Positions 196 to 15,042 of a stretch of 15,084 bases of DNA are shown here, one piece after another. The stretch covers positions 1-15,084 of the forward strand of contig WFVK01000251.1 in NCBI GenBank assembly GCA_015491705.1, read 5' to 3'. Every line of letters begins with the position of its first letter. The stretch's first letter is position 1. A program made the translations under genes and the position numbers. The stretch comes from Nitrospirota bacterium. GTDB taxonomy: Bacteria; Nitrospirota; Thermodesulfovibrionia; UBA6902. The notes beneath the pieces were generated by a model. It was not told the DNA's origin. It did no database searches and saw nothing but the letters and a program-made list of their open reading frames with translations.

Positions 196-1317
196 CTAAG
201 GAATGCCTTTCCCTCCGTGCCCTGACAGCAGTGAACCGTATATCCTTTCAATCTCCCCGGTGTTTTTCCTTATATCAAAGAAAACCTCCGACCGCTTTCT
301 GAGTTTCTCCTTCATCTCCCGGAGGGCATGCCTGTCTTCAGCCAGTCTCCCCAGTATGAAGGCCAGCTTCAGGTCATCTCCCGCGGGGAAGAGAAATTCC
401 TCTGCTTCACGGCCCAGTGCCTCCCTGCTGGATAACAGATCGGATGCAACAACAACCTTTCCCATGGCCATGGATTCAATTACTATTCTCGGCAGGCCCT
501 CTTCCCTCAAAGAGGGCAGCACCACCGCATCAACGCCGGCAATATCCTGCCGTATGTCTCTTTTATAATCCTTAAATATAACATCGGCACCGGCAGCCGA
601 TTTTTTAAGTTCTTCGAGATACCGGCCGTCTCCCTCTCCCGTGATTATCAGTTGCACTCTTTCAGCGAGTCTGCCGGCCGCCCTGACAAGAACATCTATG
701 CCTTTTCTCCGCTCTATCCTGCCGAAATAACCGACCCGCAGCACTCCTGCGTCACTGCGGTCAGCGGAAGGCCTGAACACATCCGTATCAACACCGTTAT
801 AAACAACCTTCACCCTGTCCTTTGCACCGATTGTTTCAAATCTCCGGGCCGCTGACCGGGACACCGCTATCAGGCAGTCGGTCATGTAGTAGAGCATCCT
901 GTCCATCCACCGGAGGGAATCAGAGACTCTTAAGTGAAGGACGACCGGTATGCAGAGGATTTTCCCGACCACACCGGCATAAAAGGTCTCCCTGGGGGAT
1001 TCCGTATGGATTAAGTCAATCCCTTCCTCCTTAACAAGTCCGTACAGCCTGATCAGCCTGCTTATGACATGAAACAGATTGAAAAACCTTATGGCCGGAA
1101 AGGGGAGGATGAATACCTTTATCCCCGAGCTTGCGGCCTCTTCAGAGAATTCACCCGCACGGGGCACTATCAGAAAGGGGGTGAACCTGTCTTTATCAAG
1201 GTGTTTCAGCAACAGGTGCAGGCTTTTCTGCCCGCCCCGCCGCAATGAAGCGAAACAGCTTGTATACAGGATATTGTATTTTTTCTTCTTCACACCCTCG
1301 GATATTTCCTGCAACAA
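196..1317 (-). CDS. GT4-family (GT-B fold) glycosyltransferase
   Basis: Predicted cytoplasmic, retaining, nucleotide-sugar-dependent glycosyltransferase adding one sugar to the lipid-linked repeat unit. Donor and acceptor cannot be told from sequence. The N-terminal Rossmann half has a glycine-rich loop (FASLRRGGQKSL, about 22-33). The C-terminal half has VVYNGVDTDVF (171-181), the phosphate-binding GRIERRKG (199-206), GEGD (227-230) and the EX7E motif, E273 to E281, in EEGLPRIVIE. At 373 residues it has normal length. The start is uncertain: TTG at 1317 lies inside repeat copy B and has no clear ribosome binding site. GTG at 1293, giving a protein beginning VKKKKYNILY, fits the usual GT4 N-terminus better. 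The gene is bracketed by repeat copies A and B and is the last complete gene of the operon. Confidence 0.9.
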   Translation of the reverse strand: MLQEISEGVKKKKYNILYTSCFASLRRGGQKSLHLLLKHLDKDRFTPFLIVPRAGEFSEEAASSGIKVFILPFPAIRFFNLFHVISRLIRLYGLVKEEGIDLIHTESPRETFYAGVVGKILCIPVVLHLRVSDSLRWMDRMLYYMTDCLIAVSRSAARRFETIGAKDRVKVVYNGVDTDVFRPSADRSDAGVLRVGYFGRIERRKGIDVLVRAAGRLAERVQLIITGEGDGRYLEELKKSAAGADVIFKDYKRDIRQDIAGVDAVVLPSLREEGLPRIVIESMAMGKVVVASDLLSSREALGREAEEFLFPAGDDLKLAFILGRLAEDRHALREMKEKLRKRSEVFFDIRKNTGEIERIYGSLLSGHGGKGIP

Positions 1318-1386
1318 AGGCTTGATTCCAGAATCCCGTCGCTTTATAAAGGTATAACGGCAGGTTCTTCCGAATGTTTATGCAAT
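1308..1386 (-). repeat. Dispersed intergenic repeat, copy B, overlapping two gene ends
   Basis: This is the most diverged copy, about 79 bp. It starts (minus strand) with ATTGCATAA, contains the palindrome CTTTATAAAG (1342-1351) and GCGACGGGATTCTGG, and ends TTTGTTGCAGG. Unlike A and C it overlaps coding sequence. It supplies the last 13-14 codons and the stop of the 1344-2495 gene, and at its other end reaches into the annotated start of the 196-1317 gene. After TGCAGGAA the similarity to copy A continues a little further, to a GTGAA around position 1290. Confidence 0.7.
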
Positions 1387-2495
1387 GCCATCAGTCTCCC
1401 GTAGAGGTTCTCGATTTTATCCACCATAAGGCCGGATGAAAACCTCTCTTCAACCACTTCCCTCCCTCTCCTGCCCATCTCCGCGGCCTTTTCCGGATTC
1501 TCAACGAGAAAAACAATACTCTCGGCCAATGCATAAATATCACCCGGCGGCACCAGCAGGCCGGTCTCGCCGTGTTTCACAATCTCTGAAGTCCCGCCCA
1601 CATCTCCGGCGACCACGGGGATACCGCATGCCATGGCCTCGGCGACGGCCAGGGGCAGGCCTTCCCGCACCCCGGAGGGGTGCACAAAAATATCCATGAT
1701 GGACAAAAGCCGCGGGATATCCTCGCGGTAACCTGTAAAGATAAAATTCCTCCTGATGACCGACTCTTCAGAGGCAGCGGCCTCGATATCCTTTCTGAGG
1801 GGGCCGTCGCCGACCACGAGGAATTTGACGGCGGGGAATTTTTTCAGAACATTCACGGATGCAGCGAGGAGGCAGTGGTGCCCCTTGACCGGAACAAGGC
1901 GCGATACGCTTCCTACGACGATGTCTTCCGGTGCAAGGCTGAACTCAGCACGCACCGGGCGGGTATCAGCTATTTTTCTGAATCTCTGAATCTCAACGCT
2001 GTTATGGACGGTCTGGATTTTATGCCCCTTAATGCCGATGAATTCCACAAGACACGTCCTGACAGCCTCCGAGCATGCAATGATCCTGTCCGTAAACATG
2101 CTCAGGAAACGTTCTTTGAGGCGTTCCCTCCTGCTGAAGTTGTAATACGTATTCTGCACATGTACGAGCCTTACCGGCACGCGCGCGGGGATCGAGGCCG
2201 CCCTTCCCCACACGCCGGCCGAGGCGCCCCAGCAGTGAAGAATCTGCACCCTCTCCCGCCGGAGCCTGCATGCGAGCTCAAGCAGACTTCGTATCCTGTG
2301 GGAAGGTCTGAGACCGAGGATGACCACCTCAAATCCCTGTCTTTTCAGCTCATCGGCGATCCGCCCCCCACCGATCAGGCACCACACCGCCGTCCTGTAT
2401 CTGTCCTTATCCAGGTTTTTTACAATAATGGCAAGGGTTCTCTCCAGGCCCCCGACATTCAGATCATCAACCAGATGGACAACCGCAGTCTTCAT
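1344..2495 (-). CDS. GT4-family (GT-B fold) glycosyltransferase
   Basis: Predicted cytoplasmic retaining glycosyltransferase of 383 residues. The N-terminus has the typical HLVDDLNVGGLERTL acceptor-side glycine loop (7-21). VHNSVEIQRF (163-172), SRLVPVKGHH (198-207), VVGDGPLR (227-234), a GYREDI loop (255-260) and the EX7E motif (E278 to E286 in REGLPLAVAEAM) follow. VVAGDVGGTSEIV and the GLLVPPGD loop complete a standard GT4 donor domain. It overlaps the methyltransferase gene by ATGA, so the two are probably translationally coupled. The last residues (about HKHSEEPAVIPL) are encoded by repeat copy B and are unlikely to be part of the enzyme fold. Sugar specificity cannot be predicted. Confidence 0.92.
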   Translation of the reverse strand: MKTAVVHLVDDLNVGGLERTLAIIVKNLDKDRYRTAVWCLIGGGRIADELKRQGFEVVILGLRPSHRIRSLLELACRLRRERVQILHCWGASAGVWGRAASIPARVPVRLVHVQNTYYNFSRRERLKERFLSMFTDRIIACSEAVRTCLVEFIGIKGHKIQTVHNSVEIQRFRKIADTRPVRAEFSLAPEDIVVGSVSRLVPVKGHHCLLAASVNVLKKFPAVKFLVVGDGPLRKDIEAAASEESVIRRNFIFTGYREDIPRLLSIMDIFVHPSGVREGLPLAVAEAMACGIPVVAGDVGGTSEIVKHGETGLLVPPGDIYALAESIVFLVENPEKAAEMGRRGREVVEERFSSGLMVDKIENLYGRLMALHKHSEEPAVIPL

Positions 2496-3181
2496 TTACC
2501 TGACGCTCTCTTCCGGGCCAGCGCCACCCACCCGATGGCATCCCTTTTATCCAGTCCGTCAAAAATCGCTCCCGCGGTATAAAACAGCACTGAAAGGGGG
2601 AAGGTCAGAACAGCCGCCGTCCTCTCCGCGTGTAGGCGCGGGACAAAGGAAAGCAGGTCAGCGACCGCGTTATACCAGACATCAGCCAGCCTTACTCCAA
2701 CGAGTGAAAAGACGCCGCCTATGCGCTCGATCTTCAGAACCTCGAAACCGCCTGTCTCGATAAGCTGCTTAAGTGAATACATTGTAAACCTCCAGTAGTC
2801 ATCCGGCTCATAATGAAGGCACCAGCACATAGGACATGTTATATATGCAATGCCGCCGGGGCGCAGGACCCTCCTGATCTCATCCAGCGCCTTTGCAGGT
2901 TCTTTCAGATGTTCCAGCACCTCGCTGCAGATGACGCTGTCAAATGAATTATCAGGGAAAGGCATATTAAGCGCGCTGGCATTAACGTCCGGCCGCATCC
3001 TGATATTATCATCAATGCCCGTATAATCATGATAACACACAAATCTCTGAAATGGTTTCATACCGCAGCCCACGTCAAGCACGCGTCCCTTTAAGAACGC
3101 GCTGTTTTCCCTTATCTTGTTTCTGTGCAGTTTCCTGAGAATAAAAAGAGAATCCGTGAAAATATCCGTATCAAGTTGCAT
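2492..3181 (-). CDS. Class I SAM-dependent methyltransferase (type 11-like)
   Basis: A 229-residue Rossmann-fold methyltransferase. SAM-binding motif I is VLDVGCG (34-40), an acidic GIDD follows at 55-58, motif II is SFDSVICSEVLEHL (79-92), and LRPGG (106-110) is the post-II motif. The HYEPDDYWRFT stretch (about 123-133) is typical of the sugar/lipid-associated type 11 methyltransferases found in polysaccharide loci. It may O-methylate a sugar of the repeat unit or cap the chain; this is inferred from context. The ATG at 3181 has only a weak GAG upstream as a ribosome binding site. The stop overlaps the next gene's start by ATGA. A hydrophobic stretch at about 190-210 could mediate membrane association. 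Confidence 0.9.
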   Translation of the reverse strand: MQLDTDIFTDSLFILRKLHRNKIRENSAFLKGRVLDVGCGMKPFQRFVCYHDYTGIDDNIRMRPDVNASALNMPFPDNSFDSVICSEVLEHLKEPAKALDEIRRVLRPGGIAYITCPMCWCLHYEPDDYWRFTMYSLKQLIETGGFEVLKIERIGGVFSLVGVRLADVWYNAVADLLSFVPRLHAERTAAVLTFPLSVLFYTAGAIFDGLDKRDAIGWVALARKRASGK

Positions 3182-3195
3182 GTAATTGTCTCACA

Positions 3196-3223
3196 GTTGC
3201 ATTAACCTTGCAGCGGCATTAAA
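3196..3223 (+). repeat. Possible fragment (E) of the dispersed repeat, inverted
   Basis: In the 71-bp gap between the GT2 and methyltransferase genes, the plus strand reads GTTGCATTAACCTT, then GCGGCATTAAA after three bases. The start of copy A (minus strand) reads GTTGCATAACCTT, then GCGGCATAAA after three bases. That is about 23 matched bases with two one-base gaps and three mismatches. The rest of the element is not recognisable here. It could be a degraded inverted copy or chance. Confidence 0.3.
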
Positions 3224-3252
3224 ATTAAAATACCGCCGCAGGGGGGGTGAAA

Positions 3253-4200
3253 TCAGGTTTGTCCCCGGTATCTCAAAAAGCTTAAATATTCCTTCCACAT
3301 GATTCCCAGCGGCCCCCTGAAATACTTCACATCACGCGGCCTTCCGAATAACAGATGCAGGACAGGGAACAATCCCCATACGAGCATGCTGCGTACAAGG
3401 AGGTTGAGACTCATAACCGCCGGTGACCATCTCCCGTAGTGTTTTTCAAAGAACAGGAGCCTGCTCCTGCACTTCCACTGTTCACATTCAAGGGCTATCT
3501 GCCTGGAACTCTGATTGGCATGATGTATGACCCGTATATGGGGCACGAAATAAATCTTTCCGCCGTCTTTCCTGATTCTGTAACACAGGTCCACTTCATC
3601 ATAATACATAAAAAACCGTTCATCCATAAAACCTGCCTTTTCAAGACCCTCTCTCCTGAATAACAGGCATGCCCCGTAGGGCTGGTCAACCTCCCGCATC
3701 GAATCATGGCCCCACTGCCCCATACGGTAGCGGTTGAAAAAGGAACTGCGGGGGAATGCCTGATCAAGATACAGGCTTTCCATTAAATCAGTAAACAGGG
3801 ATGGGAAATGCCTGCAGTTTCGCTGAAGGGAGCCGTCAGGGTATATCAGCATGCCGGCCAGGCCGTCCACCCCGGGATGAGCGTCCATAAATTTAACCAT
3901 CATGCCCGGCGCGTTGTCAATAATTTCCGTATCAGGATTCAGGAGGAGGACATAACGGCCACGGCACTGCCTCATGGCCTGATTGTTGGCGCGGGCAAAT
4001 CCGGCGTTGGTACTGTTGACTATGAGTCTGACGCGGGGGAATTCCCTCCTGACCATACCGGCGCTTCCATCCGAAGAATTATTGTCCACAACAAACACCT
4101 CGAAATCTATCCCGGCGGTCTTCTGAAAAAGGGATTCCAGGCATCTTCTCAGCAAGCCCATCACATTCCAGTTGACTATCACCACCGACAGGTCAGGCAT
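3253..4200 (-). CDS. GT2-family (GT-A fold) glycosyltransferase, rhamnosyltransferase-like
   Basis: Predicted inverting glycosyltransferase of 315 residues acting at the cytoplasmic face of the inner membrane. Visible GT-A motifs: LSVVIVNWN (4-12), VVDNNSSDGS (37-46), NAGFARANNQ (65-74), the metal-binding region LLLNPDTE (85-92, NPD in place of DxD), the DGS loop (122-124), and the acceptor/base region MDERFFMYYDEVDLCYR (192-208). This set is typical of WcaE/RfbF-like enzymes, often rhamnosyltransferases, though the sugar is not proven. A hydrophobic segment at about 265-286 probably anchors the C-terminus in the membrane. The start ATG overlaps the end of the upstream GT4 gene by 8 nt and has a GGGGGAG ribosome binding site. 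Confidence 0.92.
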   Translation of the reverse strand: MPDLSVVIVNWNVMGLLRRCLESLFQKTAGIDFEVFVVDNNSSDGSAGMVRREFPRVRLIVNSTNAGFARANNQAMRQCRGRYVLLLNPDTEIIDNAPGMMVKFMDAHPGVDGLAGMLIYPDGSLQRNCRHFPSLFTDLMESLYLDQAFPRSSFFNRYRMGQWGHDSMREVDQPYGACLLFRREGLEKAGFMDERFFMYYDEVDLCYRIRKDGGKIYFVPHIRVIHHANQSSRQIALECEQWKCRSRLLFFEKHYGRWSPAVMSLNLLVRSMLVWGLFPVLHLLFGRPRDVKYFRGPLGIMWKEYLSFLRYRGQT

Positions 4201-5533
4201 TTATTCTCCCCCTTTTCCTGATGTCCATGACAGCTTCATAACATCCGAGCATCTCGTCAACATGGCTGCTGAAGGAAGTCCATGGTTTGATCCTCTGCTG
4301 CATCTGTGCGACCAGCGCCGGATTCCCGACAAACAGTTGCATTGCCCCGGCAAGCCCGCCCGCGTCGCCGGGCGGGACCAGGAAGCCGTTTTCTCCGTGT
4401 CTCAGCCATCCCGGTATCCCCCCGATATCACTTCCTATCACAGGAATGCCCGCGGTCAGCCATTCAATTCCAATGATACCAAATATTTCCTCCCAGATTG
4501 ACGGTATAATTCCCACATCCATCTCGCTGAAAACCCCGTTTATCTGTTCCGGCATGTAATGCCGCCTTAATTCCACATTAAGACGCCGATCCGGTTTCTC
4601 CTCAGGAGGCATATTCCATATAATAAGCTTTGCCCTGCACTGGTCAAGCATGGAGAAGGCATCAATCAGTATGCGGTATCCCCTCGACGGGTGCCTGCCG
4701 CTTATGTAACCGAATACAACCGGATGATTATTGTTCCTCAACGGCTTGGGTTTGATCCTTTCCAGGTTTTTTACTGAAAGCGGGATTATTCTGATCTTGT
4801 TTCTTAATACGCCGCAATCCGCAAGAATCCCGGCCGAACGGTGAGAGGAACAGTGGACGGCATCCAGCCTGTTTAAGCGCTCAACAAAAAACCGGCGCCT
4901 GAGAAGATACTGGTCGGAGAGATAAGGGACGGCTTTCCTTACCGGACGTAAAACAGGCAGGCGCGTGTACAACCATGAGGGCAGGAGGGTGCGCGCAAGC
5001 CTCATGCCGTAAGACGAGCCGGCGGCCGGCAGGACGGACAGGCATTCGGTGCACCGTCTCCCGCCGTCAAAATCGTAACAGCGCTCTTCCCCCATGTAGA
5101 GCAAATCACGCTGCGGGCAGATGTCGTAATAATTATGTATGGTTTTCAGTGAAGGTATCCCCCTGCCGGAGACAATATCCATGACGGAAGCCGGATGCAT
5201 CTGGAGTTCATGGAAATGGACTATATCCGGCCTTTCGTCATCGAGCACATTCATAACCAGTCTTTCGATATCGGGCTGGAAGCACTGTATTACGGGGTCA
5301 TTCAGGCAGCCGGGCATATAAGGCGTATTCAGTATCTCCACAAACCGTATACCCTTTTCTGAACGCGTCTTCAGGCAGGGTGCGCCTGATGAGGCACGGC
5401 GCGGCACTGCAAACAGGAAAACAGTTTCCCAGCCACGCGCGCTTACGGCCTCCATGAGGGATTCCTGATAAACTATGGCGCCTCCCCTGACAAGAGGGGA
5501 CAGCCCGAACCCGATATATAAAATCTTCGGCAT
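4193..5533 (-). CDS. GT4-family glycosyltransferase with a four-Cys insert
   Basis: Predicted GT-B glycosyltransferase of 446 residues, longer than the other two GT4 enzymes here. The N-terminal domain has LVRGGAIVYQESL (14-26) and DIVHFHELQ (103-111). An insert after IHNYYDICPQRDLLYMG carries C139, C152, C161 and C164, a cysteine set seen in some GT4 relatives and possibly a metal site. The donor domain has IIPLSV (249-254), GYISGRHPSRG (275-285, a variant of the usual GRxxxxKG loop), the EX7E motif E349 to E357 in EEIFGIIGIEW, VIGSDIGGIP and GFLVPPGD. The ATG at 5533 has only a distant GCAGGTG upstream, which is the end of repeat copy C. The stop overlaps the GT2 start. Confidence 0.9.
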   Translation of the reverse strand: MPKILYIGFGLSPLVRGGAIVYQESLMEAVSARGWETVFLFAVPRRASSGAPCLKTRSEKGIRFVEILNTPYMPGCLNDPVIQCFQPDIERLVMNVLDDERPDIVHFHELQMHPASVMDIVSGRGIPSLKTIHNYYDICPQRDLLYMGEERCYDFDGGRRCTECLSVLPAAGSSYGMRLARTLLPSWLYTRLPVLRPVRKAVPYLSDQYLLRRRFFVERLNRLDAVHCSSHRSAGILADCGVLRNKIRIIPLSVKNLERIKPKPLRNNNHPVVFGYISGRHPSRGYRILIDAFSMLDQCRAKLIIWNMPPEEKPDRRLNVELRRHYMPEQINGVFSEMDVGIIPSIWEEIFGIIGIEWLTAGIPVIGSDIGGIPGWLRHGENGFLVPPGDAGGLAGAMQLFVGNPALVAQMQQRIKPWTSFSSHVDEMLGCYEAVMDIRKRGRINA

Positions 5534-5544
5534 GATGTCTTACA

Positions 5545-5632
5545 CCTGCATATCCCTTACAGAGATATATTTCCGGTATCCCATCGCTTTATAAAGCTTT
5601 TACCGCCGGCTCTCCTGCCCTGCTCATGCAAC
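5545..5632 (-). repeat. Dispersed intergenic repeat, copy C
   Basis: This copy fills most of the 107-bp gap between the radical SAM gene and the 4193-5533 glycosyltransferase gene. Read on the minus strand it begins GTTGCATGAG nine bases after the upstream stop codon and ends ATATGCAGG shortly before the next start. It contains a perfect 12-bp palindrome GCTTTATAAAGC (5586-5597). From the AAAA before the palindrome to TCTCTGT it matches copy A over about 43 bp with only a handful of substitutions. Confidence 0.75.
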
Positions 5633-5640
5633 ATCAATGT

Positions 5641-8232
5641 TTATGCCTTCAGGTTGCGCAACCTGACTGACAGGTCCTTTGCTGCAAGCGCCATCCCCTG
5701 TCTCCAGAAAGACGGGAACCAGGACTCGAAGCTCCAGGAAGCAGCCCAGGAATTGGAGCATCCCGGGCATTCTTCAACCAGCCTCCTTGATTCCTGCGCC
5801 GCCTCACCATGCCAGATTTCGGAAAAGGGACGCGACCTGACATCCCCGGCACCGACGGCGCTGTAACGCAGGCACGGCGTTACAGCGCCGTTGCATCTCA
5901 GAAGAAAAAAAGTACGCAGCGCCGCACAACGGTACCTGAGCCTGTGCTTCATTGCGCCGAGCAGTATCTCGTTGTGGAAAGAAGGCGGCAATTCCCCGAC
6001 TGCTCTGATGAGGGCTGAGTTGTCCGAGCACCTGTAATTCCTGACATTACTGTTTTTCCCGATATTGCGATAATAGACAAACTCTTCATGGAGTTGTGTT
6101 ATAAACCCCGTCCCGGAGTGCCGGGCATATGCCAGCACATCTTTCAGCGTATCCGCTGTCAGGTTCGACAGTGTATGGCCGATGACGATTACACCCATCC
6201 TGTCCTTATATTTCTTTTTCAGCCCGGTCAGCTCCTGCAACAGGTAATCCGCTTTTCTGAAGTTTCCTTTCACGCCCCGTATCCGGTCGTGCCTGTCTCC
6301 CACGGCATCAAGGGATATGCCGACATTCATGTATATATTGTTTTCAATTGCACGGCGGACCACGCCGAGGACACGCCCGGGAAGCAATGCATTGGTGCTC
6401 AATGTTATTTCCGCTGCCGGCCTGACCCTGTGAATGGCCTCTACAAGTTCCAAGATGTCATCCCTGAGAACCGGCTCACCGCCTGTCAGCAGCACTGCCC
6501 TGAGTCCGCTGAAAAGATCGTCTCCGAGCATTTTTTCTGTTTCACCGGGGCTTAACATATCCCCGGAAGGTCTGTTCTGCCATATAAAACAGTGCCCGCA
6601 GCGGGAATTGCATGCGTCCGTCACTTCATAGACCATATACCTTATCTCCGGCAATTTGCGCGCGGCTTGCAATTTCATACCGGCAAAGGCGTTGGAGACC
6701 AGCGGCCGCCAGTAACGAAAGCGGCGGCGCAATCCCCCCGGTGTCTTCCATAACCAGGCAGAAATCCTGTGGCCGTATTTCAGATAGGGCCAGAGTTCCG
6801 GGAACCTGCGCAGTATCATGATATAAATATGTTTTCCTGCAAAGGCATGGTTTTTTATGAGCCAGGAGGCTATGTCATGCAGCCGGCGGATTTCCTCAGT
6901 GCTCCAATGCGGGGTGCTGATCAGCGGCTCCTGCGTGGAGAAGAGGCTGTTGTCCGGATCTTTTTCCAGAAAACCCTTGTGCCGGGCCTCTTCATACAGG
7001 CCGGTGCCGTAATACGGCGTGGCTATGTGAATGCCTGCCGCCTCCATACCCGCCCTTTTCATGCCGAGGGCATATGTTATGGTCTCCCAGATATCCCCCC
7101 GGGTTTCCCCTATCAGGCCCATGACAAAGGAGCCGTCGACCACTATCCCGTGTTTTCTGAACAGGGCCACGGCATCTTCAATCTTCCGGAGGTCCAGTTT
7201 CTTGCCGATAATCCGTGTAACCACCTCCTGACTTCCCGACTCCGGGGCCACAAACACCCTTTTGCATCCCGACCTCTTCATTTTCCCGGCCAGTTCCCCG
7301 TCAACGGTATCGGCCCTTATACCGTTCGGAGCGCTCCATGAAACATTCAGCCCGCTGTCCGCCATCAGATCGAATATTCGCGCGGCCCGCCTTTTATCAA
7401 GCGTTAAATTGTCGTCTTCGAAATTTATATGCTTAATGCCGTAACCGGCAACGGCGAGTTCAAGCTCGGCAATAATATTTTCAGGACTTCTGGCCCTGAA
7501 TCTCTTGCCCATTGTCAGACTGATGCTGCAAAAGCTGCAGTTATAGGGGCACCCCCTGCTTGTTATAACGCTCGTCCACCTTTCATTGAAGGTATACATC
7601 GCCCGCGCGCCGCGTGTGATTCTCATCGCGTTGAAATATTCCTCCATCGGCAGCAGGTGCCTTGCCGGAAAAGGGATAGAATCGAGATCGCGGATCAGCG
7701 GCCTCCGGCGTGTCAGGACCGGGCTGGAGCCATTCATGAAGCCGATCCCGGCAACATCTTTCAGCCTGGAATATGAACCGCCATCGAGGGTCTCTGTCAA
7801 CTCCCGCGCGGTATCTTCCCCTTCACCGACTATCACAAAATCCACACACCCGGATAAAAGCGTCTCCACGGGACGCACAGACGGGTGGACGCCGCCCATA
7901 ACCGTTATTATATTTTTATCAACGGCCTTTACCTCTGAAGCCGTACGGACGGCGTTTGCCTCGTTAATGGAAAAGGGGACGGTTATGCCTGCAAGGTCCG
8001 GTTTTATACTTCTTATCCTCTCCCTTATCTCCCCGAATGACAGTCCGAGACAGTACCTCCCGTTGATTTCCCTCAGGCTTCTCCATCCCTCCAGTGATGC
8101 ATCAAGGACATACACCTGGTGTCTCTTCTCCAGTACAGCCGCCACGTATAACAGTCCCAGGGGCTGAAAGACATACGGCGTACCGAAACGCCTGTGCAGG
8201 GCCTGGGGCGGATTAATCAGGCATATCCTCAT
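5641..8232 (-). CDS. Double radical SAM protein: B12-binding radical SAM half fused to a radical SAM/SPASM-like half
   Basis: An 863-residue protein with two complete radical SAM cores. Residues 1-180 form a cobalamin-binding-type Rossmann domain with INPP (6-9), VMGGVHPSVRP (111-121) and DFVIVGEGED (131-140), but no obvious DxHxxG, so the cofactor may be bound base-off. The first 4Fe4S motif is CPYNCSFC (C228, C232, C235), with FEDDNLTLD at 271-279 and a GLIGET motif (372-377). A linker of about 90 residues follows. The second motif is CNSRCGHC (C541, C545, C548), with TGGEP at 583-587. The tail has C769, C780, C787, C822 and C825 around GAVTPCLRY, resembling SPASM/Twitch auxiliary-cluster domains. 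The start overlaps the flippase stop (ATGA). It probably modifies a sugar or lipid of the polymer; the reaction is unknown and no precursor peptide is visible. Confidence 0.88.
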   Translation of the reverse strand: MRICLINPPQALHRRFGTPYVFQPLGLLYVAAVLEKRHQVYVLDASLEGWRSLREINGRYCLGLSFGEIRERIRSIKPDLAGITVPFSINEANAVRTASEVKAVDKNIITVMGGVHPSVRPVETLLSGCVDFVIVGEGEDTARELTETLDGGSYSRLKDVAGIGFMNGSSPVLTRRRPLIRDLDSIPFPARHLLPMEEYFNAMRITRGARAMYTFNERWTSVITSRGCPYNCSFCSISLTMGKRFRARSPENIIAELELAVAGYGIKHINFEDDNLTLDKRRAARIFDLMADSGLNVSWSAPNGIRADTVDGELAGKMKRSGCKRVFVAPESGSQEVVTRIIGKKLDLRKIEDAVALFRKHGIVVDGSFVMGLIGETRGDIWETITYALGMKRAGMEAAGIHIATPYYGTGLYEEARHKGFLEKDPDNSLFSTQEPLISTPHWSTEEIRRLHDIASWLIKNHAFAGKHIYIMILRRFPELWPYLKYGHRISAWLWKTPGGLRRRFRYWRPLVSNAFAGMKLQAARKLPEIRYMVYEVTDACNSRCGHCFIWQNRPSGDMLSPGETEKMLGDDLFSGLRAVLLTGGEPVLRDDILELVEAIHRVRPAAEITLSTNALLPGRVLGVVRRAIENNIYMNVGISLDAVGDRHDRIRGVKGNFRKADYLLQELTGLKKKYKDRMGVIVIGHTLSNLTADTLKDVLAYARHSGTGFITQLHEEFVYYRNIGKNSNVRNYRCSDNSALIRAVGELPPSFHNEILLGAMKHRLRYRCAALRTFFLLRCNGAVTPCLRYSAVGAGDVRSRPFSEIWHGEAAQESRRLVEECPGCSNSWAASWSFESWFPSFWRQGMALAAKDLSVRLRNLKA

Positions 8233-9812
8233 TTGCTGAACCTTGCCATCACGCGCCGGACCGCAGGGGCACTGTCCCTGGCCAGGAGCATGACATCTGT
8301 ATGATTCAGCGGCCTTATGTATAACAGAGCCATCAAATAAACACTAAAAAACAGCACGGCCTGTGCAATAAAGATAAGCAGCCCCGCCATGCGTCCCTGC
8401 GGGGCTGCAAATTCTGAAATCACTGTAGTCAGGCCCCAGACAGGCACTGCCGCTGATATACAAACGGCTGCCGCGGTTATAATCGATGTCTCCCTGAAAC
8501 GCCGGAGCGGAAGCCTGATCTCCTGATGCAATATCACAAACCCGTATACCGCTGAGAAGAACAGCGCGATTAATGTCCCGAATGCAACGCCCATGAAGCC
8601 GAAACGTGCAATAAAAATAATGCTCAGAGGAAGGTTGAGGGCCACAGCCACCAACCCGGCTTTCATCTCCATGCCGGGCCTTGCAATCGCCTGGACAACC
8701 GCTCCCCTCACACCCGCCAGTACAGCGCACAGCCAGCCGGCTCCCGTGATCCGGATGATCCAGGCGGACTTTTCGTAACCCTCTCCCATCCAGACCCTCA
8801 TTATCTGCGGAGCCGAGATAATGACAAAGACAAACAACGGAACCGATATGAAGGCGAGGTATTTGGTGCCCCTCAGATAACCTTCAACAAGTTTTTCTCT
8901 TCCTCCGGATGCATCTATCTCTGAAAAAGCCGGCACCAGAGCGGAGAGAAACAGGAGCGCAACCGATTTGGTCTTCTCCACTATTGAGCTCCCCAGTTGA
9001 TAGAAGGCCACAAGGCCGATTGACAGGAAATAACCGATCAACAATTTGTCCATATTAACCGATACCATTGAGGCTATGCGGGCTATCTGCAGCCTCACCC
9101 CGAAGCCCGACAGCCTCCTGAACATCTCCCGGCTGCACAACATGGGATTGAATTTCAGTTCCGGCAGTATCCTGAAGGCGATACAGATATTGACGGTACC
9201 GCCTGCGGCAAGCAGGATTGCATTGTTGATCATCAGGCCGGGCAGGCCCCAGCCCGCTTCCAGAAAGGCTATCGTACCGATGATGCCCGGCACGGACACT
9301 GCAATCGCCGCCTTGTTGGTGATGTCCATCCGCTGCAAACCTCCCGGGACCGCAGCGAAAGGACTCAGTGCCCCGGAGACTGCAAACAGGAGGATCCCGA
9401 GCAAAAGGACAAACTCCGCCTCGCTGCGCAGTTCCTGCGGGATATTGAACAGATTCACCAGCGGGCCAACAAGATAAAAAGCCGGAACAATAATCAGCGC
9501 CGCAACAACCGAGTAAAACACGAACCCCGTGTTGACAGCCTCGTTTATCTTCCTGAAGTCCCTGAGGGTGTAATACTCTGCCATATACCTGACAAAAGAG
9601 GTTCCGATGCCGAAATCAAGCAACCCGAAATACCCTGTGACAACACCGGTAATCGCCCATATGCCGTATCTCTCTATGCCTATACGGTCTATGATATAGG
9701 GTGTCAGGAGCAGCGCCGTCAGGATGCCCCAGAACCGTCCGATGATGTTAAAAAAAGTGTTTCTGATTATCTTGCGGGCAACAGGAGTTTCCCGTGTCGG
9801 ATTATCGCTCAT
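8229..9812 (-). CDS. Polysaccharide flippase, Wzx/PST (MATE-like) family
   Basis: A 527-residue polytopic inner-membrane protein with roughly 12-14 hydrophobic segments spread over its whole length. It opens with the typical family start NTFFNIIGRFWGILTAL, followed by TPYIIDRIGIERYGIWAI, which matches the usual Wzx/RfbX-type N-terminus (LGxxxYGxW). GLLDFGIGTSFVRYMAEYY, about residues 62-80, is another family hallmark. It would flip the completed lipid-linked repeat unit to the periplasmic face. The start overlaps the polymerase stop by ATGA, and its own stop overlaps the radical SAM start by ATGA, so the three genes are tightly coupled. Substrate specificity is not predictable. Confidence 0.92.
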   Translation of the reverse strand: MSDNPTRETPVARKIIRNTFFNIIGRFWGILTALLLTPYIIDRIGIERYGIWAITGVVTGYFGLLDFGIGTSFVRYMAEYYTLRDFRKINEAVNTGFVFYSVVAALIIVPAFYLVGPLVNLFNIPQELRSEAEFVLLLGILLFAVSGALSPFAAVPGGLQRMDITNKAAIAVSVPGIIGTIAFLEAGWGLPGLMINNAILLAAGGTVNICIAFRILPELKFNPMLCSREMFRRLSGFGVRLQIARIASMVSVNMDKLLIGYFLSIGLVAFYQLGSSIVEKTKSVALLFLSALVPAFSEIDASGGREKLVEGYLRGTKYLAFISVPLFVFVIISAPQIMRVWMGEGYEKSAWIIRITGAGWLCAVLAGVRGAVVQAIARPGMEMKAGLVAVALNLPLSIIFIARFGFMGVAFGTLIALFFSAVYGFVILHQEIRLPLRRFRETSIITAAAVCISAAVPVWGLTTVISEFAAPQGRMAGLLIFIAQAVLFFSVYLMALLYIRPLNHTDVMLLARDSAPAVRRVMARFSK

Positions 9813-11206
9813 ATCACCCGCCGCATCAAAATATTGCCGGCGGATGGACAGACCGCCGTCATATCTTTGCCGGTGACCTCCGGCAGCATCACTACCATGG
9901 CCGTCAGAAACCAGAACGGCTCCATAATCCGGATAATAATGAATGTACTGGCGGAGAATGCATGAAACAACAGACCGGCAAACGCCGCTGTAAATCCTGT
10001 GGCCAGACCCCGTGTCCAGTCATCCTCCATAATATTCAGCGTCCGTGTCCCCGCCTTGAAGATAGCCGCCATCAGCCACAAAAACACCATAAATCCCGCC
10101 AGGCCCGTCTCTCCCAGCACCCGTGCATACTGTGAATCTATAAAACCGGCCCCGGCCGCGCCGTAGCCCAGAATGGGACGCTTGTACCACTTCTCCATTG
10201 TTTCCTTCCACGTATCTATGCGGGCGGCGGCGGACTTTTCAAATATCACCCGCCTGCCGAATACAGAATACTCCTTCCCTGAAACGAATGTGGAGGCTAT
10301 GCGCTGCCTGACAAAGTCGGGCATTAACACAGGAGACGACACGATGATGACCGCCAGGAATGCGAGCAGGACGTATCTCGCCTTTCTGGTCAATATTATC
10401 ATGGAAATATACATGGGTATAAATCCCAGCCATCCGCCCCTGGAGAGTGTGAACAAAAAGGGCGGAACCATAAAACAGAGGAGCCCCGACAGGAGAACAC
10501 GGTAAAGCAGGCGTCCGGAGTATATGATAAGCCCGATGATCACGCCCATCATCAAAAGCAGGTATCCCGCGAGGGTATTCGCCTCGCCACCCACTATGCC
10601 GTCAAAAGGGGCGGCGACGCGTGTAACTCCTGAAAAATGCAGCTTCCATGCATATACGCTGACAAAAAAAGAGGTGAGTATCATAAAAAACAGGAATATT
10701 TTCACCTGCCTTATGTCTTTTATAATATTGCTCACCATAAAAAACAGCAGAAAATATTCAAAATATTTCAGAAGATAAAGGAAGCTTTTTCTGTAGTCCG
10801 ACCCTCCCCACATTATTCCAAGACCCGTGGATATCAGGCAGATAAAGATATATACAAGCACAGGCCTGTTAAGGGGCGTAACCCTTAACAGGCCCACCTC
10901 CTTGTTTACGGCCATTTTTGCCAGCCAGCCCAGAAACACGACCATCAGAAAAATATCGTCCATGCGCAAGACAACGGCCCTGTCACTGGCCTCACCTACC
11001 GGGAGCTCCGGCGACAGCAGCATCGAGAGGATCAGGATAATCAAGGCGATATCAGTGTGGATAAAGGCAAGGACAAATATCGCCGAGGCAAGAAGAAAGA
11101 CGATGCGAAGTCCGGGAGGGACATCATAACTGTTCATGAAGGCCACCATTACAATGGCCGTAACGGAAATTACGGTAATAATGCCTGCCTGGCCGCTTTT
11201 AATCAT
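9809..11206 (-). CDS. Wzy/WaaL-like O-antigen polymerase or ligase (Wzy_C family)
   Basis: A 465-residue inner-membrane protein with about 10-12 transmembrane segments. The family signature is clear: TLSRGGWLGF (253-262), then a periplasmic-loop region RIDTWKETMEKWYKRPILGYGAAGAGFIDSQYARVLGETGLAG (about 329-371), broken by the RPxxGxG and ExGxxG hallmarks of the O-antigen ligase/polymerase superfamily. It would polymerise repeat units on the periplasmic side or ligate them to an acceptor; sequence does not separate the two roles. Lying next to Wzx, Wzc and Wza homologues, it is more likely the polymerase. The ATG at 11206 follows AAAAGGGGAG. It is separated from the Wzc gene by 70 bp containing two stem-loops. 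Confidence 0.88.
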   Translation of the reverse strand: MIKSGQAGIITVISVTAIVMVAFMNSYDVPPGLRIVFLLASAIFVLAFIHTDIALIILILSMLLSPELPVGEASDRAVVLRMDDIFLMVVFLGWLAKMAVNKEVGLLRVTPLNRPVLVYIFICLISTGLGIMWGGSDYRKSFLYLLKYFEYFLLFFMVSNIIKDIRQVKIFLFFMILTSFFVSVYAWKLHFSGVTRVAAPFDGIVGGEANTLAGYLLLMMGVIIGLIIYSGRLLYRVLLSGLLCFMVPPFLFTLSRGGWLGFIPMYISMIILTRKARYVLLAFLAVIIVSSPVLMPDFVRQRIASTFVSGKEYSVFGRRVIFEKSAAARIDTWKETMEKWYKRPILGYGAAGAGFIDSQYARVLGETGLAGFMVFLWLMAAIFKAGTRTLNIMEDDWTRGLATGFTAAFAGLLFHAFSASTFIIIRIMEPFWFLTAMVVMLPEVTGKDMTAVCPSAGNILMRRVI

Positions 11207-11276: not shown

Positions 11277-13286
11277 TCAGGTCAACCTGTCATACTGGTA
11301 ATATGTATAAGTCGGCACGGCTCCGGTGCGGAGCCTGATCTGGTTCAGGATTACTCCCGCGATATTGGCGCCGACCGATTCAAGCTGGACCTTGGCCCGC
11401 AACAGCCCTTCCCTTGATATCTTGCCGATTTCATAGCACAGAACCACAACATCCAGCCTCGATGCAAGAAGGCTGGCATCGGTCACCGGCAGCACGGGCG
11501 GTGAATCAAAGAAAATAAAATCAAACTCTCTCTTCAGCTCTTCAATCAGTTCCCACCATCTCCCGGATTCCAGTATCTCCGCGGGATTGGCGGGCAGACG
11601 TCCGCCGGGAAGAACCCACAGGTTTTTTATACCCGAAATCATTGCTGTTCCACCGGATGCCGTATCTTCCGGTACGGTCTGCTCTATATTCCTGAGCGCT
11701 TCTTCCATGCTTGCCGTGCCTGCCACAAGTTCGGTCAGCCCCGGTTCCCTCTTTATACCGAAAGTCCTGGCAATAGACGGGCGCCTTAAGTCACATGAAG
11801 CAAGAAGTGTTTTGGCGCCTGTCTGGGCCACGGCCAGACCCAGATTCGTCAAAATCGTACTCTTGCCTTCGTGGGGCCCCGAGCTCGTTACAAGGACCGT
11901 CCTTCTGGATGGTCCGAGTTTAAGATTGGTCCGGATATTGCGGCAGGCTTCGGCTACAACAGACCGGGGTTGATGATGGACAATCAGGCGTATATATGCC
12001 TCCTCGGCCTCCCTCCTCATCACAGGGGAAATGTTTTTTCTGAATTTCACTTTCCATTTCTTGAGATTACCGCGTGCCGAAGGAACCACCCCCAAGACGG
12101 GCAATTTGACGAGGTTCTCCACATCCTCAATGGTTCCTATGGAAGTATCCAGGGCCTCGAATATAAAGGCAAGCACAATTCCAAGCAGCAAGCCCATCAT
12201 CCCGCCTATCAGCAGGTTGAGCCTTCCCTGCGTATTCACCGGGGAGACAGGCATGACCGCAGGATCCACTATCGAGACATCCCCGACTTTCTGCGCCTCG
12301 TTAATACGCGCCTCTTCGAGCTTTTCCTTGAACATCATGTATAATTTTCTGTTGACCTCAACCTCGCGGGAGAGCCTGGCATATCTGAGTTTCTGCCCCG
12401 CAAGAGTCTTTCGGCGCGACTTTAACTCTTCGCTCTTCTTCTCCTGCCGAACCATTGATTCTCTCGCGCCTTCCATACGTTGTGAATACGACTCCTTCAG
12501 TCTTTCCTCGAGCAATGCCTCCAGTTCATTTATCTGCCTTTTAAGGCGCACTATCCGTGGATGCCGGGCCGTATATCTCTGCATGAAGGCCGACAATTTG
12601 AAATTCAGCTCCAGCAGTTTCTCCCTGATCGGTCCAAGCGCCTTTATATCCCCTGCATCATCCGTTTTCACTGTGTTATCAATACTGCCTGATTCATCAG
12701 TCATCTGTTCTTTGAATTTCCACAGGCGGTCTTCCGCCTTTTCCAGCCTGACCTCCAGCAATGCGAGCTGCTCTTCAATAAACCTGCGGGCATTGCGCGC
12801 CTGCCTCGTCTTCTCCAGCAGGTTCTCTTCTATGTATACAGAGGCTACATTTTCGGCCAGTTCTTTGGCCCTTTCGGGGTCGGATGCAGAGGCGGTGATT
12901 CTGATGATATTGGTGCGTTCGATTCTCTCGGTCTCTATGCTGTTCTGTAATCCCTTCACCACCCTGTGCACTTCCATGACAGGCATATCATCGTTTATCA
13001 TTTTCAGGCGCAAAGCCACTTTCTTCATAATGGGGAACCCCTTGATTATCCTGGCCTGTGAGGCCATTTTATCGCCCGGGTTGTAAGTTATCCACTCTGA
13101 AAGCAGGCCGGAGACGGTTCTGCGTTCTTCTATCTTGACCGTGGTGGATGCCTTGTATACGGGAGAGGGCTTGGGGGAAAGCAGGATACTGCCGGCGCTT
13201 ACAAGAAGAAATGTCGTGATTATGACAAATTTTCTTCTCTGGAATATCCTTATGTAATCCCTGAGGCTCAGTTCATACTGCGGCAA
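11277..13286 (-). CDS. Wzc-like polysaccharide co-polymerase with C-terminal BY-kinase domain
   Basis: A 669-residue inner-membrane chain-length regulator fused to a bacterial tyrosine (BY) kinase. A Wzz domain lies at the N-terminus, with TM1 at about 20-37 and TM2 at about 357-376 next to a proline-rich PVSPV. A long charged, coiled-coil-prone periplasmic part fills roughly 155-335. The cytoplasmic ATPase has Walker A SSGPHEGKST (468-477), Walker A' LLASCDLRRP (494-503) and Walker B FDFIFFDSPP (588-597). A tyrosine cluster near the C-terminus (Y660, Y662, Y663, Y665) is the expected autophosphorylation tail. Walker A' normally reads DxD; here the first Asp is Ser497. The start is TTG at 13286, supported by GGGGGG with a 6-nt spacer. 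It follows the Wza-like gene by 39 bp. Confidence 0.93.
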   Translation of the reverse strand: MPQYELSLRDYIRIFQRRKFVIITTFLLVSAGSILLSPKPSPVYKASTTVKIEERRTVSGLLSEWITYNPGDKMASQARIIKGFPIMKKVALRLKMINDDMPVMEVHRVVKGLQNSIETERIERTNIIRITASASDPERAKELAENVASVYIEENLLEKTRQARNARRFIEEQLALLEVRLEKAEDRLWKFKEQMTDESGSIDNTVKTDDAGDIKALGPIREKLLELNFKLSAFMQRYTARHPRIVRLKRQINELEALLEERLKESYSQRMEGARESMVRQEKKSEELKSRRKTLAGQKLRYARLSREVEVNRKLYMMFKEKLEEARINEAQKVGDVSIVDPAVMPVSPVNTQGRLNLLIGGMMGLLLGIVLAFIFEALDTSIGTIEDVENLVKLPVLGVVPSARGNLKKWKVKFRKNISPVMRREAEEAYIRLIVHHQPRSVVAEACRNIRTNLKLGPSRRTVLVTSSGPHEGKSTILTNLGLAVAQTGAKTLLASCDLRRPSIARTFGIKREPGLTELVAGTASMEEALRNIEQTVPEDTASGGTAMISGIKNLWVLPGGRLPANPAEILESGRWWELIEELKREFDFIFFDSPPVLPVTDASLLASRLDVVVLCYEIGKISREGLLRAKVQLESVGANIAGVILNQIRLRTGAVPTYTYYQYDRLT

Positions 13287-13325: not shown

Positions 13326-14081
13326 TCACTGGGCTATAACCTGCATCAGCCGTAATGTCCATGCGCTTTTGTATACAGGCTCAAGAAACTGCGTGACAAA
13401 ATAATTCACATCGGCGATAAATTTCCTTGGCACATAGACCATATCCTCTGACTGCAATGCAATATTCTGAGTCATGTCCGTCTTTTTGATGGCGCGGCTC
13501 AGGTCGAGCCTCATCCCCTGAGGGCTCTCCGGCCCTCCCCTGAGGAGTATTACGCTGGATAAAACCGCATGCTGCGTAAAACCATTTGCGCGTGCTATCG
13601 CTTCAAGCACGCTCCTCTGCCCGGAGACATAATAAACTCCCGGTTCATTGACCTCGCCCAGCACAATGACCTTTTTATCGCCTGTTTTCTTGATGGATAT
13701 GGAAATTATGGGATCCCTCACATACTGTTTGAGCCTCTCTGCAAGCTCTTCCCTTAACATGCTGAACGTCAGGCAGACAGCCGGCACGTCACCTGCGAGG
13801 GGAAAAGATATCTTCCCGTCAGGACGGACCACCACCTCCTCCCTGAGGTCATCTTCATCCCATACCGATATATACAGGACATCCCCGACTTCAATGACAT
13901 ACTCCGGAAGCCCGGTTTCCCCGTTATAGCCGGCCGGGCCGCCTGCATGACCAGCGGGCGCGCAGACAAGCAATGCGGTTATCAGCATGAAAACGCGAAG
14001 AACAATCCCCGCCTTCAGGTGACTTGCCGGCGGTCCCGCCACTCCTGTCAGGGCCGGAATATTTTTGACTGAAGTTTCCAT
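13326..14081 (-). CDS. Wza-like polysaccharide export protein (PES and SLBB domains)
   Basis: A 251-residue secreted protein, first gene of the operon. A hydrophobic signal sequence spans about 24-46 with a likely signal peptidase I site after AGHA. C40 in LLVC is not a proper lipobox because Val precedes it, so lipidation is unlikely. The export (PES) domain begins YVIEVGDVLYISVWDEDDL (61-79) and includes VRPDGKISFPLAGDV (85-99). An SLBB domain follows with VIVLGEVNEPGVYYV (138-152). The C-terminal helix-like stretch (about 224-250) could be the membrane-spanning end. It would form the periplasmic/outer-membrane export channel working with the Wzc-like protein. The ATG at 14081 is preceded by AAAGGGG. 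It is shorter than E. coli Wza and resembles the compact export proteins of EPS loci. Confidence 0.92.
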   Translation of the reverse strand: METSVKNIPALTGVAGPPASHLKAGIVLRVFMLITALLVCAPAGHAGGPAGYNGETGLPEYVIEVGDVLYISVWDEDDLREEVVVRPDGKISFPLAGDVPAVCLTFSMLREELAERLKQYVRDPIISISIKKTGDKKVIVLGEVNEPGVYYVSGQRSVLEAIARANGFTQHAVLSSVILLRGGPESPQGMRLDLSRAIKKTDMTQNIALQSEDMVYVPRKFIADVNYFVTQFLEPVYKSAWTLRLMQVIAQ

Positions 14082-14193: not shown

Positions 14194-15042
14194 GTGGAAC
14201 GTATAGATATAGTGAAGGCGCAGGCCCTGACCAAGGATTTTTCCCCTCCTCTCTCTTTCAGAAAACTGCTCAGCCTTGATTTCAGGCACACAAGGCAGAC
14301 CAGGGCGATTGAGGATGTCTCTTTTTCCCTTGAAAAGGGAAAGATACTCGGTGTTCTCGGCCCGAACGGCGCGGGCAAGACCACCCTGCTGAAGATACTG
14401 GCCACCCTCATACTCCCGGATAAAGGCAGCGTGCTTATAAACGGATGGCGTGCCGGCATTGATGACAACAAAATCAAATCCTTTACCGGACTGGTCTCTT
14501 CACAGGAGAGGAGTTTTTACTGGCGGCTTACGGGAAGGCAGAACCTTGAATTTTTTGCAGTCATGCACGGCCTGGAAAACGCAAAGGGCAAAATTGAAGA
14601 ATTGTTTGATCTCTTTGAGACAGATTACCAGGATATGCGGTTTGACTCTTACTCCACCGGAATGAAACAGAAATTCGCCTTAATGAGGGGCCTGCTCCAT
14701 GATCCGGGACTTCTGCTTTTAGATGAGCCGACCAGGAGTCTGGATTACACGACAGCCCTGAATCTGAGGAATTTCATAAAAGAGAACCTGGTCAGGGAAA
14801 AAGGGAAAACGGTTATATTCACCACCCACAACATGGATGAGGCCGTGGATTTCTGCGACCTGTTTATGATATTGCATAAAGGGAGGCTTTATGCCATGGG
14901 AACGCTGGATGAGCTGCGGGAAAAGGTAAATGATCCCGCTGCGTCACTGGGGGAGATATTTATAAAACTGACTGAGGGGAACAGCCACAAAGACACAAAG
15001 ATTAAAGACAACATAATAGTTCAGCCCCCTCGGGGAGATTAA
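14194..15042 (+). CDS. ABC transporter ATP-binding protein (ABC-2 exporter type)
   Basis: A 282-residue nucleotide-binding subunit that would power an ABC-2 type exporter; the permease should follow outside the window. Walker A is GPNGAGKTT (56-64), the Q-loop Gln is 104 in SSQERSFYWRL, the signature is YSTGMKQK (153-160, an ST-G-M variant of LSGGQ), Walker B is LLLLDEPT (173-180), the D-loop SLD is 182-184 and the H-loop His is 212. The 107-114 stretch FYWRLTGRQNLEF is typical of DrrA/NatA/CcmA-like ATPases. The start is GTG at 14194 without a strong ribosome binding site; GTG at 14212 is an alternative. The last 20 residues look non-conserved and include a tandem CACAAAGA. It is divergent from the polysaccharide operon, so a shared role is not implied. 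Confidence 0.9.
   Translation: MERIDIVKAQALTKDFSPPLSFRKLLSLDFRHTRQTRAIEDVSFSLEKGKILGVLGPNGAGKTTLLKILATLILPDKGSVLINGWRAGIDDNKIKSFTGLVSSQERSFYWRLTGRQNLEFFAVMHGLENAKGKIEELFDLFETDYQDMRFDSYSTGMKQKFALMRGLLHDPGLLLLDEPTRSLDYTTALNLRNFIKENLVREKGKTVIFTTHNMDEAVDFCDLFMILHKGRLYAMGTLDELREKVNDPAASLGEIFIKLTEGNSHKDTKIKDNIIVQPPRGD

Follow-up and report, generated by a model that had tools for sequence, protein, structure and literature searches.

A rare, recurrent fusion of B12-type and twitch-type radical SAM enzymes encoded beside Wzx-type flippase genes

OxsB, TokK and TsrM are class 1 cobalamin-dependent radical S-adenosylmethionine (SAM) enzymes (PMC13331322, which, like the other PMC articles named here, is cited from excerpts). 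The chains of these three and of CysS contain no second radical SAM enzyme, unlike the protein described here, in which a B12-binding radical SAM enzyme is fused to a twitch-domain radical SAM enzyme. Its gene lies in a polysaccharide locus on a 15,084-nucleotide stretch of DNA from a Nitrospirota bacterium (contig WFVK01000251.1 of assembly GCA_015491705.1), the whole of which we call the window. AprD4 (PDB 6fd2), a radical SAM enzyme of apramycin biosynthesis that acts as a 1,2-diol dehydratase, has one radical SAM domain versus two in the fusion, and BtrN, a twitch-domain radical SAM enzyme that dehydrogenates a cyclitol, is a single enzyme (270 residues in its entry). HpnJ, a relative of the B12 type, makes the cyclitol ether of bacteriohopanetetrol (BHT); it acts on a lipid-carried sugar, BHT glucosamine (PMC12583986), and its model has no second radical SAM domain. 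For albucidin, the B12-type enzyme AlsB and then a second radical SAM enzyme, AlsA, act on one sugar-containing substrate (PMC13331322); unlike the fusion, they are separate proteins with a nucleotide substrate. Two radical SAM enzymes in one chain are found in FbiC, the CofG-CofH fusion of F420 biosynthesis, whose halves are separate proteins elsewhere (PMC8498797). The FbiC pathway differs from that of the present fusion, and the CofG and CofH families were not among the best 25 of its 68 NCBIfam matches. To our knowledge FbiC has no B12-binding domain. A search of the open-licence PMC literature by title and start of abstract found no description of the present fusion. It newly combines two enzyme types that are each known, and FbiC is its architectural precedent.

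A first-pass annotation of the window had reported an uninterrupted frame of 863 codons at 5641-8232. This frame was confirmed on the minus strand; on the plus strand the same frame is interrupted by stops. The protein is divided as follows.

5641..8232, minus strand: fused radical SAM protein (B12-binding radical SAM plus twitch radical SAM), 863 amino acids
6853..8232, minus strand: N-half, residues 1-460, B12-binding-domain radical SAM enzyme
7798..8175, minus strand: B12-binding domain PF02310, residues 20-145 (Pfam)
7528..7551, minus strand: first cluster motif, C228/C232/C235, invariant in 26/26 rows
6643..6888, minus strand: linker, residues 449-530 (alignment and predicted structure)
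5644..6642, minus strand: C-half, residues 531-863, twitch-domain radical SAM enzyme
6589..6612, minus strand: second cluster motif, C541/C545/C548, invariant in 26/26 fusions and in 35/35 fused or presumed split C-halves
5758..5928, minus strand: twitch domain, residues 769-825, with C769, C787, C822 and C825 invariant in 35/35

The Radical_SAM family PF04055 matched two stretches of the protein (146.4 bits, Pfam). Both cluster motifs are of the form CX3CX2C and lie exactly where the annotation had placed them, and in an alignment of 26 full-length sequences, the window's own among them, none of the ten cluster cysteines varies. The predicted N-terminal domain of B12-binding type was recovered by PF02310 at 63.4 bits (cut-off 32.1). 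With a B12-binding Rossmann domain N-terminal to the barrel and a CX3CX2C motif, the N-half shares two features with class 1 cobalamin-dependent radical SAM enzymes and may bind cobalamin. Enzymes of this class hold cobalamin base-off, with no histidine ligand. No conserved histidine was found in the loop after strand 1 (residues 8-24; histidine in 5 of 25 rows, among them H13 of the window's protein) or in the loop after strand 3 (84-92; 0/25). The C-terminus had been called SPASM-like and rich in cysteine. SPASM family PF13186 indeed matched residues 769-825 above its cut-off (35.2 versus 21.5 bits, Pfam), but the pattern found, C769-x12-G782-x4-C787 ... C822-x2-C825, holds four conserved cysteines and not the seven of the motif CX9-15GX4C-gap-CX2CX5CX3C-gap-C (PMC6231123). 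Past residue 825 no cysteine is conserved in the alignment: 21 of the 26 rows have none and the other five have one or two. A full SPASM domain was rejected, since three of the seven cysteines have no counterpart; by its cysteine pattern the Fe-S domain at the C-terminus is of the twitch type, with four cysteines predicted to ligate one auxiliary cluster.

In structure comparison several of the closest solved folds, namely AprD4, BlsE, DesII and BtrN, were those of enzymes with sugar or cyclitol substrates; families absent from this comparison are not thereby excluded. Peptide maturases were also among the fold matches of the C-half, for which BlsE, SkfB and SuiB outscored BtrN, and by sequence profile BtrN aligned to the C-half weakly (E 4e-4), at profile positions 763-821. 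The N-terminal part of AprD4 was left unaligned by sequence profile, whereas those of TokK, OxsB and CysS aligned in part. The best NCBIfam match, NF038361 (Sden_1168 P-methyltransferases), scored 215.1 bits with the whole protein and 217.4 with the N-half, below its cut-off of 575. Scores for AprD4 (NF033070; 101.7 whole protein, 103.6 N-half, cut-off 500) and HpnJ (TIGR03471; 165.5, cut-off 577.6) were likewise too low for membership. P-methylation, which NF038361 suggests, is disfavoured and not dismissed: phosphoenolpyruvate mutase exceeded its cut-off in 0/9 genomes and fell below it in 2/9, and these metagenome-assembled genomes are incomplete.

When about 5.8 billion proteins were searched for homologues, 1289 matched, and the best 120 of these were examined. 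Twenty-six align over 94-100% of the query, namely the window's protein and 25 others (47-85% identity), and the remaining 94 cover 51-59% of it and match the N-half only. Judged by length and coverage, none of these best 120 matches is a fusion in reversed, C-N order. By their source names the fusions come from Deferribacteres, Omnitrophica, Firestonebacteria, Spirochaetota and Thermodesulfobacteriota; a scan of genome contigs added an Elusimicrobia record (L012), the frame of which lacks residues 1-72. Within the window's own phylum the fusion was present in 1 of 395 genomes sampled, that one being the source genome itself, and in addition in the same-genus genome G395 (locus L009), where the protein is 85% identical to the window's. 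Other counts were 2/384 in the phylum of L011, 1/294 in that of L012 and 2/45 in that of L014, with none among 297 genomes of the phylum of L015 and none among 48 of the class of L016; in the scans of the own phylum and of those of L011, L012 and L015, scoring was limited to the two or three best candidates of each genome. The fusion is thus recurrent though rare. This qualifies its first-pass description as unusual, as does the two-radical-SAM chain of FbiC.

The two halves also exist as separate genes. At L015 they are adjacent, N then C (493 and 358 amino acids), and at L016 an N-half of 503 amino acids is followed by a C-half frame. Between the 94 N-only and 88 C-only proteins among the matches listed, eight pairs agree exactly in the length of their longest contig, against five in total over 20 offset controls, so that further split pairs, several in number, are probable. 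Fused and split forms are intermingled on a quick tree built from 83 N-halves; the fusion label needs seven changes, at least three of them forced by well supported branches, and the fusion state has therefore probably changed more than once. Sequence identity in the N-half tracks that in the C-half (Mantel r 0.90 across the 26 fusions and 0.72 across nine split pairs; 0/2000 shuffles as high), although among the fusions physical linkage alone could produce this. Elsewhere, distant C-half-like radical SAM genes directly adjoin B12-type ones at L037, L034, L039-L041, L204 and L206, and around L037 the C- and N-type genes alternate as C-N-C-N. Six and eight B12-type radical SAM matches lie inside one 20-kb stretch at L182 and L184, respectively.

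The other genes of the operon in the window are:

13326..14081, minus strand: Wza-type export protein (PF02563)
11277..13286, minus strand: Wzc-type chain-length determinant with tyrosine autokinase domain
9809..11206, minus strand: Wzy/O-antigen-ligase-type polymerase (PF04932)
8229..9812, minus strand: Wzx-type flippase (PF13440/PF01943)
4193..5533, minus strand: GT4 glycosyltransferase (Pfam)
3253..4200, minus strand: GT2 glycosyltransferase (Pfam)
2492..3181, minus strand: SAM-dependent methyltransferase (Pfam)
1344..2495, minus strand: GT4 glycosyltransferase (Pfam)
196..1317, minus strand: GT4 glycosyltransferase (Pfam)

The fusion thus stands between Wza, Wzc, Wzy and Wzx types upstream and GT4, GT2, methyltransferase, GT4 and GT4 genes downstream, which bears out its earlier assignment to a Wzx/Wzy-type operon. 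The proposed coupling to the flippase gene is real as well: the flippase stop (8229-8231) and the radical SAM ATG (8230-8232) share a four-base ATGA overlap. For most of the 26 fusion proteins no readable locus could be assigned, and the comparison covers eight different loci with a fusion: the window, L009 (on one contig with L192), L010 (L139), L011, L012, L013, L014 and L177. Wzx lies directly upstream of the fusion in the window, L009, L013 and L014. It is also upstream in the other four, at a distance of about 2.0-2.4 kb in L010, L011 and L177 and of about 4.1 kb in L012. The intervening genes in L010, L011 and L177 are an extra C-type gene and one further gene, a methyltransferase in L010 and L011 and an unscanned frame of 304 codons in L177. 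Wzx is the gene immediately upstream of both split pairs, L015 and L016. The same holds for two of three close C-only genes (L178 and L180; stand-alone C-half matches at E <= 1e-90 in the scans of the L012 and L015 phyla), while at the third, L179, Wzx is about 1.1 kb off on the other strand. Pfam confirmed the flippase in L015, L016, L178, L179 and L180. Altogether Wzx was found within 4.2 kb in 13/13 related loci (eight fusions, two split pairs, three close C-only genes).

As controls we used 40 stretches, from which seven were counted apart (L138, L139, L177 and L192 as fusion or split; L178-L180 as C-only). The 33 left, more distant N-type loci and some of them short (3.5-7.6 kb), had Wzx anywhere in seven cases, within 4.2 kb in five and adjacent in two (L124, L127); in L125 and L130 a distant C-type gene adjoins the N-type gene. 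At three distant C-type loci, L204-L206, no Wzx was in reach (0/3); in L204 and L206 a B12-type radical SAM gene directly follows the C-type gene. The contrast of 13/13 with 0/3 and 5/33 indicates that the flippase link is a property of the close subfamily and goes with the C-half more than with the N-half, and for this subfamily the link to the export pathway is good. Glycosyltransferases recur too: a GT4 gene like the window's at 4193-5533 follows the fusion in six of the seven other fusion loci, the exception being L012, and a homologue of the window's GT2 lies downstream of the fusion in L011, L012, L014 and L177.

The linker (449-530) is poorly conserved (mean column conservation 0.38), yet its length is steady at 68-82 residues. 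Its stretch 463-525 is basic, with a net charge of +6 to +13 (median +9) that is positive in 26/26 sequences, and contains 15% aromatics; per 100 residues, the charge of the two enzyme parts is about +0.3 and +0.9. The predicted structure shows this stretch mostly as one long helix (478-523), with predicted local distance difference test values of 63-93 in the linker part. The hydrophobic moment of the stretch, 0.64, was the highest among the helices compared, partly because it is the longest stretch. In split pairs the tails of the N-halves are basic in 9/9 (+5 to +9) and the heads of the C-halves range from 0 to +7. Such a basic linker helix suggests that the protein docks at the membrane.

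We hypothesize, with moderate confidence, that the fusion is a two-enzyme radical catalyst that modifies the glycan of its Wzx/Wzy locus on the inner side of the membrane, ahead of export by the flippase. The C-half would use SAM and its four-cysteine auxiliary cluster for a BtrN-like oxidation or epimerisation, and the B12-type N-half would carry out a second step on the same glycan unit, e.g. C-methylation, ring rearrangement or an AprD4-like dehydration. Fusion would keep both steps together, the linker helix would hold the protein at the membrane near its lipid-linked substrate, and Wzx would export the glycan after both radical steps. Substrate, both reactions and their order are our proposals; we infer sequential action on one sugar from the co-variation, from the neighbouring genes and from the fact that several of the closest folds act on sugars or cyclitols. 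A fuller version is tentative and, as a whole, rather doubtful: one membrane-docked protein would perform two consecutive radical reactions, B12-type and twitch-type, on a lipid-linked sugar unit, so that the exported sugar would be C-methylated, ring-contracted, deoxy or keto/epimerised beyond the reach of ordinary nucleotide-sugar enzymes, and the C-half subfamily would be the Wzx-linked partner to which the B12 enzyme was joined. If our reading is right, surface-glycan assembly would include radical chemistry as a built-in step in several bacterial lineages that have been little studied, and the fusion would mark two reactions that belong together. The protein is also a defined target for expression, useful in the search for new sugar chemistry and in studying radical SAM access to lipid-linked substrates.

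Both halves might instead be active on different substrates of one pathway, one perhaps a nucleotide sugar and the other a glycan unit, with fusion serving only to equalise the amounts of the two halves. The close C-half genes near Wzx that have no N-half match in their stretch (L178, L179, L180) fit this, as does FbiC, whose domains appear independent, with an intermediate that diffuses (PMC8498797, in the excerpt cited). Repeated fusion or fission in N-then-C order and co-varying divergence fit a shared substrate better, without proving it, and we regard separate substrates as unlikely. We give little credence, too, to a membrane lipid, lipid carrier or peptide as substrate in place of a sugar, although the N-half's relatives include lipid enzymes at scores below cut-off (HpnJ as above, TIGR04072 at 89 bits and HpnR at 69.6), the linker is basic and aromatic, and peptide maturases occur among the C-half folds. 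Against it stands the proximity of Wzx, GT4 and GT2 genes in loci whose names span several phyla; small peptide genes were not searched for. Fused domains are often accessory, and one half could be catalytic with the other an electron-transfer or docking module, but with both CX3CX2C motifs invariant in 26/26 rows this is very improbable. Loss of a stop/start pair at the junction through an assembly or sequencing error, as considered in the first-pass annotation, would agree with the adjacent-gene pairs of other lineages (L015, L016) but is scarcely credible when the same fusion is present in the same-genus protein of L009 and in 24 further database proteins with the linker length kept.

Several observations concern genes around these loci. 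Extra stand-alone twitch-type radical SAM genes are found in L010 (9956-11011, open), L011 (3517-4472, frameshifted) and L177 (11374-12483, open); the idea that the L177 gene is a broken copy was rejected, its frame being open over 369 codons; the stop reported for it by a genome scan lies within its match span. At 2148-5703 the fusion locus L013 has a second adjacent pair, made up of a B12-type and a SPASM radical SAM gene, and an NAD-dependent epimerase gene comes next. In L131, from a genome of the same family, the Wzc, Wzy and GT4 proteins are 63-71% identical to the window's, and an N-half-only radical SAM gene (37%) on that same stretch lies 4.9 kb from a Wzx match. L180 has a UDP-glucose/GDP-mannose dehydrogenase gene (11622-12998) beside its Wzx and C-only genes, a hint at uronic-acid sugars, beside which we set the best C-half fold match, BlsE, a cytosylglucuronate decarboxylase.

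In the window itself, GC content is even (0.50-0.56), no known RNA family reached its gathering score, and scans for promoter-like and terminator-like sequences were uninformative (18 versus 14.7 expected and 24 versus 15.1). An inverted repeat whose 16 pairs enclose a 6-base loop (10860-10897) lies inside the Wzy-type gene, and a divergent plus-strand gene at 14194-15042 is, from a motif recognised by eye, a candidate ABC transporter ATPase.
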